Assembly (NCBI GenBank): GCA_021788565.1 | Contig: JAJYKO010000162.1 | Span: 1-8,884 of the forward strand | Reading direction: 5' to 3' | From: Chloroflexota bacterium | GTDB lineage: Bacteria; Chloroflexota; UBA6077 | Length of the DNA stretch: 8,884 nt | In this document: positions 3 to 6,323 of the stretch, one piece after another | Position numbering within the stretch: position 1 is the first letter of the stretch | Layout of the letters: each line of letters opens with the position of its first letter | Notes under the pieces: model-generated | What the model saw: only the letters and a program-made list of their open reading frames with translations | Database searches by the model: none | What the model was told of the DNA's origin: nothing | Position numbers and translations under genes: made by a program

Positions 3-929
3 AGGCGCCTCACGCTCGCCGCCGACCACGTAGCCTCGGGTGACTTCTCCCAGCGGGTCGAGGTCAACTCCAGGGATGAGCTCGCTTCCCTGGCCGAAGC
101 TTTCAACACGATGGCCGCGAGCCTGGCGAAGACCGAGGAGCAGAGGAAGCGGCTGTTTTCCGACATCGCCCACGAGCTGAAGACTCCCATCTCGGTCATC
201 CAGGGCAACGTAGAGGCAATCATGGATGGGGTAGTCGACCCGACTCCCGAGCGGATGGCTTCGCTACGGGATGAGACCCTGCTTCTGTCGAGGCTGGTCA
301 CGGACCTGAGGGACCTCTCGCTCGCCGAAGCCGGGCAGCTCAAGCTGCACCCTGAGCCAACGGATCTCGAAGAGCTCCTGAAGACCGCCGCGGCAGGGAT
401 GCAGCCGCAGGCGGAGGAACGACGGGTACAGTTGGAGACGCACCTCGAAGGAGGACTGCCGCTGGTTCTCGCGGACCGAGATCGGGTCGGGCAGGTGTTG
501 CGCAATCTGGTCGCCAACGCCCTTCGATACACGCCTACCGGAGGGAGGGTTGAGCTATCAGCGGTAAGCCACCAGTCGTCAGCTATCAGTCATCACCCAT
601 CAGTCGCAGGTCGCAAGTGGAACTCAGAACCCAGCACCCAGAACCTAGAACCCAGAACCGGGGCATCTTCCCTCGTGGTGGTCACAGTCATGGACACCGG
701 CGCGGGAATACCTGCCGACGACCTGCCCCACATCTTCGAACGTTTCTACCGGGTCGACAGGTCCAGAACTAGAATTAGCGGCGGCACAGGGCTGGGCCTC
801 GCGGTGGTGAAACAGTTGGTGGAGTCTCAGGGGGGAAGAGTCTGGGCTGAGAGCGAGGTCGGGAAAGGCACCACGTTCCACTTCACCCTTCCAGCGGTCG
901 CTCGAGCCGCGGAGCCCGTTACCACCTGA
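3..929 (+). CDS. Sensor histidine kinase, 5' end outside the window
   Basis: C-terminal part of a membrane two-component sensor kinase, which autophosphorylates on His and passes the phosphate to a response regulator that should lie upstream. The frame is open from base 3. Visible residues 1-40 are the end of a HAMP linker (SGDFSQRV, DELASLAEAFNTM). The H-box FSDIAHELKTP follows with the phospho-accepting His at visible residue 57. The ATP-binding domain has an N-box (NLVANALRYTP, near residues 169-178), a G1 box (DTGAGIP, about 231-237), an F-box (FERFYR) and a G2 box (GGTGLGLA, about 260-267). All catalytic motifs are intact. The oddity is about 35 low-complexity residues between the N-box and the G1 strand, encoded by a heptanucleotide repeat; homologues normally have a short loop there. 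The ATG at 111 is internal to the HAMP-DHp coding sequence and is not the start. The signal sensed cannot be told. Confidence 0.95.
   Translation, partial: RRLTLAADHVASGDFSQRVEVNSRDELASLAEAFNTMAASLAKTEEQRKRLFSDIAHELKTPISVIQGNVEAIMDGVVDPTPERMASLRDETLLLSRLVTDLRDLSLAEAGQLKLHPEPTDLEELLKTAAAGMQPQAEERRVQLETHLEGGLPLVLADRDRVGQVLRNLVANALRYTPTGGRVELSAVSHQSSAISHHPSVAGRKWNSEPSTQNLEPRTGASSLVVVTVMDTGAGIPADDLPHIFERFYRVDRSRTRISGGTGLGLAVVKQLVESQGGRVWAESEVGKGTTFHFTLPAVARAAEPVTT
557..661 (+). repeat. Degenerate heptanucleotide tandem array inside the kinase gene
   Basis: Fifteen contiguous 7-base units (15 x 7 = 105 bases = 35 codons) with a purine at position 1 of every unit. The left part consists of variants of ATCAGTC (for example 585-591 and 599-605, with ATCACCC between). 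The middle has GCAGGTC and GCAAGTG. The right part consists of variants of GAACCCA (627-633 and 648-654 identical). The phase never breaks. It resembles in kind the short tandemly repeated heptanucleotides (STRR) described in cyanobacteria, though the units are different. Since 105 is divisible by both 7 and 3, the kinase frame survives and no stop occurs in this frame. Confidence 0.85.
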
Positions 930-3840: not shown

Positions 3841-3869
3841 GTAGAGGCGGGCTTGAAACCCGCCTCTAC
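3841..3869. repeat. GTAG-headed palindromic repeat (REP-like)
   Basis: GTAGAGGCGGG at 3841-3851 pairs perfectly with 3859-3869 around a 7-base loop. It begins 6 bases after the PAP2 stop codon. A GTAG tetranucleotide at the foot of a hairpin is the hallmark of REP elements mobilised by REP-associated tyrosine transposases. The ends also match those of the element at 6235-6323 (GTAG, one purine, GGC). It may end or protect the PAP2 transcript, but no T-run follows. Confidence 0.65.
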
Positions 3870-6234: not shown

Positions 6235-6323
6235 CTTGTAGGGGCCGCGTGACGCTGTGCTCGCTCGCGTCACGCCCTGCCGGCCCGTTCTGGCGGGCGG
6301 ACACGGCGGTCCGCCCCTACAAG
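6235..6323. repeat. REPIN-like double hairpin with GTAG ends
   Basis: An 89-bp element is bounded by a perfect 11-bp inverted repeat, CTTGTAGGGGC (6235-6245) and its complement (6313-6323). Inside are two hairpins. One pairs GCGTGACG (6247-6254) with 6268-6275, extended by GGGCC (6242-6246) with 6282-6286. The other pairs GGGCGGAC (6295-6302) with 6309-6316. Read from either end it starts GTAGGGGC, the layout of two REP units in opposite orientation. It lies 15 bases beyond the acyltransferase stop, so it could also act as that operon's 3' end. Confidence 0.7.

Follow-up and report, generated by a model that had tools for sequence, protein, structure and literature searches.

A heptanucleotide repeat array in a recurrently occupied loop of a Chloroflexota sensor histidine kinase

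Our analysis of a stretch of 8,884 nucleotides from a Chloroflexota bacterium (the window) showed that 15 tandem heptamers lie within the ATP-binding domain of a sensor histidine kinase gene. The array is a repeat of a known kind whose coding position is unusual and recurrent, and we consider it likely that it represents a heptamer repeat that spreads and expands, is kept in frame by selection and survives in a permissive loop. Recent spread of a repeat family had been suggested by an earlier sequence-only reading of the window, and it provides the best explanation, as period-7 arrays recur in the same loop of homologous kinases. Arrays of this kind show that repeats in DNA can give rise to new disordered loops in proteins, and their repeated in-frame entry into one loop of a catalytic domain amounts to a natural insertion-scan of the kinase fold.

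Period, register and drift of the array

Positions 557–661 of the forward strand consist of 15 consecutive heptamers in one register, according to both the unit table and lag-7 statistics (Table 1). Units 1–8 read ATCAGCG, GTAAGCC, ACCAGTC, GTCAGCT, ATCAGTC, ATCACCC, ATCAGTC and GCAGGTC, and units 9–15 read GCAAGTG, GAACTCA, GAACCCA, GCACCCA, GAACCTA, GAACCCA and GAACCGG. Identity at lag 7 was 62/98 (0.63), whereas 100 dinucleotide shuffles of the entire window gave 40.5 on average and never more than 45, which rules out chance or composition as the source of the array. The highest-scoring 105-base stretch of the window at this lag (63/98) began at position 553. Lags 14, 21 and 28 gave identities of 0.62, 0.50 and 0.49, and the remaining lags from 1 to 33 that are not multiples of seven gave 0.11–0.32. 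A scan of the 8.9-kb window at lags 4–19 detected lag 7 at 603–659 and lag 14 at 546–605 and 622–659, and it found no second array elsewhere in the window. Tandem Repeats Finder returned pieces only (569–605, 573–605 and 620–659) because the units are degenerate. The unbroken 7-base phase of 15 units described in the sequence-only reading was confirmed in its coordinates, period and register.

Identity between units was 63% for neighbours, 37% at a distance of six units and 14–22% beyond. Since likeness between units fades with distance, the words do drift from ATCAGTC-like to GAACCCA-like, which bears out the gradual word change that had been noticed from the letters, and this graded decay looks like local duplication and mutation. 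Stops are absent from two of the array's three forward frames, one of which is the coding frame. Structural roles for the repeat at the nucleic acid level were rejected: the predicted RNA fold was weaker than that of shuffles (z +2.35), the best inverted 14-mer match was 8 against a mean of 9.75 in 40 shuffles, and four GGG runs were present on neither strand, with a two-G pattern on the minus strand only, leaving no hairpin, inverted pair or G-quadruplex. The two word classes of the array are not complementary, and no complementary arms were found within it.

Table 1. Coordinates of the kinase gene, its domains and motifs, and the heptamer array in the window
Feature	Position	Strand	Remarks
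Sensor histidine kinase ORF (HAMP, HisKA, HATPase_c)	3..929	+	5' end beyond window
HisKA, dimerisation and phospho-acceptor	141..335	+	Pfam residues 47–111; DIAHELKTP holds the presumed phospho-acceptor His
HATPase_c, interrupted by the array	474..896	+	Pfam residues 158–298
N-box region QVLRNLVANALRYTP	492..536	+	N168, N172 invariant
Heptamer array, 15 units	557..661	+	Encodes about residues 185–220 of the kinase fragment
Left array part, TCAGC/ATCAGTC-like words	557..605	+	First unit holds TCA GCG (conserved Ser-Ala, strand end)
Transition units GCAGGTC, GCAAGTG	606..619	+	Unit table
Right array part, GAACCCA-like words	620..661	+	Tandem Repeats Finder, unit table
G1 box DTGAGIP	693..713	+	D231, G233, G235 invariant; end of post-loop strand 224–231
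G2 box GGTGLGL, ATP-lid end	780..800	+	G260, G261, G263, G265 invariant; residues 251–260 low pLDDT

Host kinase and predicted position of the loop

The window ORF is the C-terminal part of a kinase for which a full-length homologue, P0001 (530 aa), is 99% identical and carries an identical loop. HAMP, HisKA and HATPase_c each exceeded their Pfam cut-offs, the reading frame is open through the array, and the gene possesses the domains and catalytic motifs of a HAMP-HisKA-HATPase_c sensor kinase. His57, which we take to be the phospho-acceptor, was invariant among 51 aligned sequences; N-box, G1 and G2 are names that we presume for the motifs. The kinase motifs had been called intact before, and all of them were indeed present; open frame, domains and motifs together support the related suggestion that the gene may still be functional. 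Repeats are prone to assembly error, and an assembly or sequencing artefact is nevertheless extremely improbable here, given that the frame is intact, that comparable loops occur in other homologues and that P0001, which differs from the window kinase elsewhere and whose largest contig measures 7,582 bases, shares the loop exactly.

An AlphaFold model built from an alignment of 51 sequences (mean pLDDT 83) had histidine-kinase-type structures as its closest structural matches. Loop residues 194–217 fell below pLDDT 50 and the flanking strands 182–190 and 224–231 were intact, the array filling the hairpin loop ahead of the G1 strand and the core being preserved in the predicted model. The array-coded loop is predicted to be disordered and probably leaves catalysis unchanged. 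The sequence-only reading had placed the array in the loop between the N-box and the G1 strand; it does fill that loop, but its first units also overlap the end of the preceding strand (residues 182–190 in the model). A variable loop near the ATP lid, which had been offered as an alternative role, did not hold. Strand 224–231 joins the loop to the G1 aspartate 231, so, judging by the succession of elements in the model, the loop should lie at the far end of this strand and point away from the nucleotide; a position close to the lid is rejected on that basis.

Replacement of the ancestral loop and recurrence in homologues

The segment from N-box to G1 comprises 66 residues in the window in comparison to 44 in the array-free homologue P0018, and the net effect of the array relative to P0018 is +22 residues (66 bases). 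The net gain is 22 residues and not 35 because the ancestral loop residues are gone, and on this comparison the array is judged to have replaced the ancestral loop rather than added to it. About 35 extra residues in frame had been proposed, of which the preserved frame stands and the number does not; the argument from an exact multiple of 7 and 3 is lost as well, as 105 bases is not the inserted length. Close homologues had been expected to lack the array, as is the case for P0004–P0012 and P0018, which have 44-residue segments without period 7. Long non-repetitive loops in other kinases, which had been regarded as evidence against a repeat insertion, were encountered in part: P0017, P0032 and P0061 have segments of 64–76 residues with no period-7 signal. 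Such long loops exist without period 7, so the loop tolerates length in general. An unrelated SPLPLGEG/LPLPLGEG-like repeat peptide was observed in the same kinase loop of P0022 and P0030.

Period 7 was assessed in a homologue set of 193 proteins from two protein searches, with the best 120 matches listed in each, by back-translating each loop peptide to period-7 DNA and comparing it with shuffled peptides, lags 4, 5, 6 and 8 serving as controls. Among the 193 homologues listed, 173 loops were located and 70 were testable by length, the 103 that were too short for the test being counted as array-free. Fifteen loops were specific to lag 7, with z values of 3.2–7.3 in comparison to at most 2.2 at the control lags. 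P0023, P0028 and P0030 initially appeared periodic (0/100 shuffles) but their other lags rose too, and P0016 gave a weak signal (2/100 shuffles); these four were excluded from the strict set of 15 and carry no score in the strict count of changes on the tree. P0002, P0003 and P0127 contain both word classes in the same order as the window (SAISRQ-type and then EPRTQN/ELRTQN-type peptides), the period-7 call for P0002, P0003 and the other nearest array-bearing homologues resting on peptides rather than DNA. An exact-word search with the window's own loop peptide, a weak search of four candidates, found it in P0001 only.

The kinase tree was calculated from 59 rows with the loop excluded, 55 of which were scored after the four ambiguous rows were omitted; P0024, which the loop pattern did not pick up, is not among the rows of this tree, whose bootstrap is unsettled. 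The 15 array rows required at least 11 changes on it, and 200 label shuffles required a mean of 13.4 (range 10–15). Counting P0016, P0023 and P0028 as arrays raised the requirement to 12 changes, and an earlier tree (50 rows, 11 of them with arrays, these three among the 11) required 9. The number of changes is nearly as high as for random labels, so arrays come and go. P0127, with a similar array, is the sister of P0001 (100/98), and P0126 (99/95) and the weakly placed P0018 (90/37) fall just outside this pair and have no array. If both arrays share one origin, the array would predate the split of P0001 and P0127 and would be young in the family.

These distributions also bear on whether the loop has itself been selected, as a disordered segment recruited for signalling or partner contact with heptamers as its raw material. 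Recurrence of long loops without period 7 at this position (P0017, P0032, P0061) and the SPLPLGEG-like repeat in P0022 and P0030 agree with such a function, but the presence of arrays is scattered over the tree almost like shuffled labels, their words, lengths and peptides vary between lineages, the loop is modelled with very low confidence, and array-rich genomes carry arrays in other genes and at intergenic sites too. We therefore regard a selected functional loop as unlikely.

Arrays with other words in the same loop

A survey of loops at the DNA level covered 113 sequences (112 loci and the window), in which ten loops of at least 46 residues were found by pattern. Six of these ten had excess lag-7 identity (0/200 shuffles), namely the window, L103, L106, L109, L110 and L112. 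The loop words of L110 and L112 were GATTGCA with TGCAATC or CAATCAA, the latter word occurring in one arm of L110, while those of L106 and L109 were GGATGAA/TTCATCC and L103 had a weak GATTGCA. In L110, L112, L106 and L109, unlike in the window array, the arms are complementary at least in part. The L110 kinase has 30 orthologues in 30 of the 82 genomes of its order, and the array was present in two sister species but not in the other 28. The array of the window is therefore no isolated case, as the same loop bears heptamer arrays in other kinases, often with other words.

Genome G619 yielded 126 HATPase_c matches, of which 50 were examined (the 30 best-scoring and 20 others longer than 350 bases). 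Five of the 50 had an array within the domain (L191, L194, L195, L199 and, weakly, L197), and all five were located in the same N-box-to-G1 loop. The 76 remaining HATPase_c domains are at most 350 bases long, which makes long arrays unlikely in them, although small ones could be missed, and whole-locus scans of L187 and L190, which are cut by contig ends, found no array. In L106, L195 and L109 a unit is altered where pure GGATGAA would place TGA in frame, which suggests that selection maintains an open frame. Heptamer arrays, mostly with paired arms, were also observed just outside HATPase_c, and apparently downstream of it, in L168, L171, L178, L184 and L209 of the same genome.

Relation to known heptamer repeats

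Several tandem 7-base units in one register are characteristic of STRR-like repeats and were found in the window (15 units), and the usual though not strict intergenic location of such repeats was not, as the array lies inside the ORF at 3–929. Cyanobacterial STRR heptamers were reportedly described by Vioque in 1997, including some inside the RNase P RNA gene. Those within this gene occupy a variable part of it. Both cases represent short tandem repeats inside a functional gene, but the cyanobacterial host is an RNA gene in another phylum. Rickettsia palindromic elements (RPE) are inserted in frame.

RPE and REP elements are small and dispersed and occur also inside genes, as in the case of the GTAG/CGTC REP elements (PMC3733652). 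The inverted heptamer pairs of G619 and G459 are likewise palindromic. RPE and REP elements are not, however, tandem heptamers, and the window array is not palindromic.

Heptameric repeats are over-represented in bacteria, and their cause and fate have been little studied, according to a study of such repeats (PMC4692102). Its account of two Xanthomonas genomes gives 89% and 93% of GGGAATC repeats as intergenic and counts 70 and 75 inverted heptamer pairs, proposes polymerase slippage over a 7-base segment as the cause of heptamer repeats, and states that Xanthomonas GGGAATC and Nostoc GGGGA(C/T)T repeats can form G-quadruplexes (PMC4692102). The window array resembles these repeats, which are dispersed genome-wide, in its tandem 7-base units and variable words, and it differs from them in lying inside a catalytic domain and in lacking four GGG runs. 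The Xanthomonas layout of inverted pairs is also common in G619 and G459, and the window array may belong to another subtype than these pairs. Dispersal of heptamer arrays was seen in the relatives G619 and G459 and, by few arrays, in G587; we infer that the genome of the window itself would hold more array copies.

TAACTGA direct repeats occur in Beggiatoaceae, Cyanobacteria and Bacteroidetes with a minority in ORFs, and in one Beggiatoaceae genome most of them lie just upstream of start codons (PMC4679880). The reverse orientation, TCAGTTA, is free of stops and encodes the 7-residue repeat LSVISYQ (PMC4679880), which is close to the SAISHQ-type peptide of the window and likewise derives from a 7-base unit. 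Unlike in TAACTGA repeats, the words of the window array drift within the array. Neither TAACTGA nor its complement TCAGTTA occurred in the array or the window, and none of the 15 units equals TCAGTTA. Chloroflexus aurantiacus is named among satellite-rich genomes in a further study (PMC6749651). No description of heptamer arrays in the HATPase_c loop of histidine kinases was found in the accessible literature, which mostly excludes subscription journals.

Array-rich genomes and replacement of words

Samples of G619 (220 kb) and G459 (164 kb), on contigs mostly picked for kinase arrays, contained 62 and 47 lag-7 arrays respectively, in comparison to 0–8 at the control lags 4–6, 8–13 and 15–19. 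Many consisted of two complementary arms, each some 32 bases long, others were single and graded like that of the window, and the same words occurred inside and outside genes. After merging, 33 of 79 arrays fell within long coding-like ORFs, an approximate count that rests on long GC-biased, uncurated ORFs and includes overlapping ORFs of both strands. In-frame heptamer arrays were observed at L115:17444–17517 in a gene that we take from its peptides to be LeuA-like, at L120:4681–4748 in a presumably ABC-transporter-like ATPase gene, and at many places in the 2970-aa ORF of L128 (11085–19998). Comparison of flanks showed that one array in the LeuA-like gene is present in one and absent from the other of G619 and G459, with a net difference of +51 bases.

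G619 and G459 represent two sister species. In the direction from G619 to G459, 44 sites were tried, of which 25 had no flank match (some on a contig without a compared partner) and 19 were scored: 6 had the same word, 7 a different word and 6 no array. The reverse direction (38 sites tried, 13 without flank match, 4 not collinear, 21 scored) gave 6 same, 6 different and 9 absent; the two directions overlap and counts are taken from G619. Inspection of the seven different-word sites by eye left four clear swaps, the others being a one-base word difference (39482), mixed words (122880) and an unfair pair with a 1,469-base slot (119007). At least two of the six absent sites were threshold effects, as the partners of 40230 and 132326 have short diverged repeats. 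In the clear swaps the flanks of the two species agree up to near the arrays, but the words are not the same: GATTGCA arms stand opposite GAATGTT arms ahead of a gene presumed to be pheA-like, for instance, and GGATGAA stands opposite GATTGCA at a second, intergenic site. One site has an inter-arm spacer that lies in exactly opposite orientation in the two species, which implies recombination between arms. Different words at some shared sites of two sister species were unexpected, and they render the origin of 7-base repeats testable in close strains.

For two intergenic slots (L218–L247 and L248–L277) the 30 best loci within the order were read, from matches in 68/82 and 61/82 genomes. Period-7 arrays were present in 5 of 29 readable loci of the pheA slot, with four different top words, and in 8 of 30 readable loci of the second slot, with six. 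Several of these arrays had paired arms, and the remaining slots had no array by the period-7 test; by eye, several of the array-free slots were ordinary hairpins or gaps of 0–6 bases.

We cannot explain the word changes at these fixed sites by slippage alone. A tentative and rather improbable reading is that in array-rich Chloroflexota the heptamer words of fixed sites are exchanged wholesale by some active process of rewriting, the loop of the window being one such slot. Such rewriting, should it occur, which we doubt to the same extent, would keep the site, the 7-base period and often the paired-arm layout, the word of both arms changing between close species. Equally speculative is its agent, which would not be ordinary slippage but a word-replacing system, with templated re-synthesis or ectopic conversion among arrays as examples. 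A simpler alternative to active rewriting is that a favoured slot received insertions independently.

Origin and maintenance of the window array

Under the explanation that we prefer, a spreading heptamer repeat kept in frame by selection, arrays would originate at or reach many sites of some Chloroflexota genomes, lengthen and diverge through slippage (duplication of units) and point mutation, and recombine. Coding arrays would persist only where their peptide is tolerated, which in HATPase_c would be the hairpin loop that is exposed between the N-box strand and the G1 strand. As seven is not divisible by three, an array runs through every codon phase, so that only versions in frame and free of stops would survive. 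In the window the array most likely arrived or began at the Ser-Ala strand end and then grew by slippage, and selection would have retained in-frame, stop-free versions, the loop being exposed and tolerant.

Whether the array began in place, with a native TCAGC seed (the Ser-Ala codons at the strand end) extended by slippage, or was copied in can be addressed by its phasing. The Ser-Ala codons TCA GCG fall within the first unit, and SAx[SG] occurs at offsets 0 and 7 from Ser-Ala in P0001, P0002, P0003, P0013 and P0127. In P0016 and P0125 it occurs at offset 0 only, and it is out of phase in P0014, P0021 and P0122 and absent in P0015, P0020 and P0124. The phasing hints at a native TCAGC seed or at microhomology, and it is not decisive because several rows are related (P0001, P0002 and P0127 are not independent). 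Loop words of G619 and G459 match many other sites in the same genome, which argues for copying in, at least there. Birth in place is therefore possible for the window array, though we hold it to be somewhat unlikely.

A 7-base step does shift the reading frame, and phase-variable genes with heptanucleotide repeats have been described, so the array could be imagined as a contingency locus at which gain or loss of one unit switches the kinase on or off. We consider phase variation very unlikely. Neighbouring units are only 63% alike and slippage should thus be slow, the array lies deep in the protein away from its start, and P0001, which differs elsewhere, has exactly the same loop. The authors of the heptamer study judged phase variation unlikely for the Xanthomonas and Nostoc repeats as well (PMC4692102).

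Near relatives and other repeats in the window

A universal kinase-motif scan of contigs gave at least 80 loci, the first-ranked of which was 46% identical to the window kinase. A draw of the class around G001 (5/393 genomes) contained distant kinases only, and in a draw of the phylum (17/400 genomes) the closest was G477, with a kinase 55% identical and a non-repeat loop. No kinase closer than that of G477 was found in its order (3/13 genomes). The GAACCCA pattern had no match in G477 itself and matched 3/13 genomes of its order, in comparison to 2/13 for the reversed control pattern; another scan with this pattern matched 4/14 genomes, and the reversed control 3/14. G587 contained few, dispersed heptamer arrays.

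Three further repeats were observed in the window. Positions 3841–3869 form an inverted repeat with 14-nt arms and a 1-nt loop, and positions 6235–6323 one with 11-nt arms 67 nt apart, both with GTAG/CTAC in or at the arms, and they are reminiscent of GTAG-tagged palindromes (PMC3733652). The third, at 1169–1207, is an intergenic 17-nt inverted repeat (94% complementary) with a 5-nt loop and is possibly a terminator.
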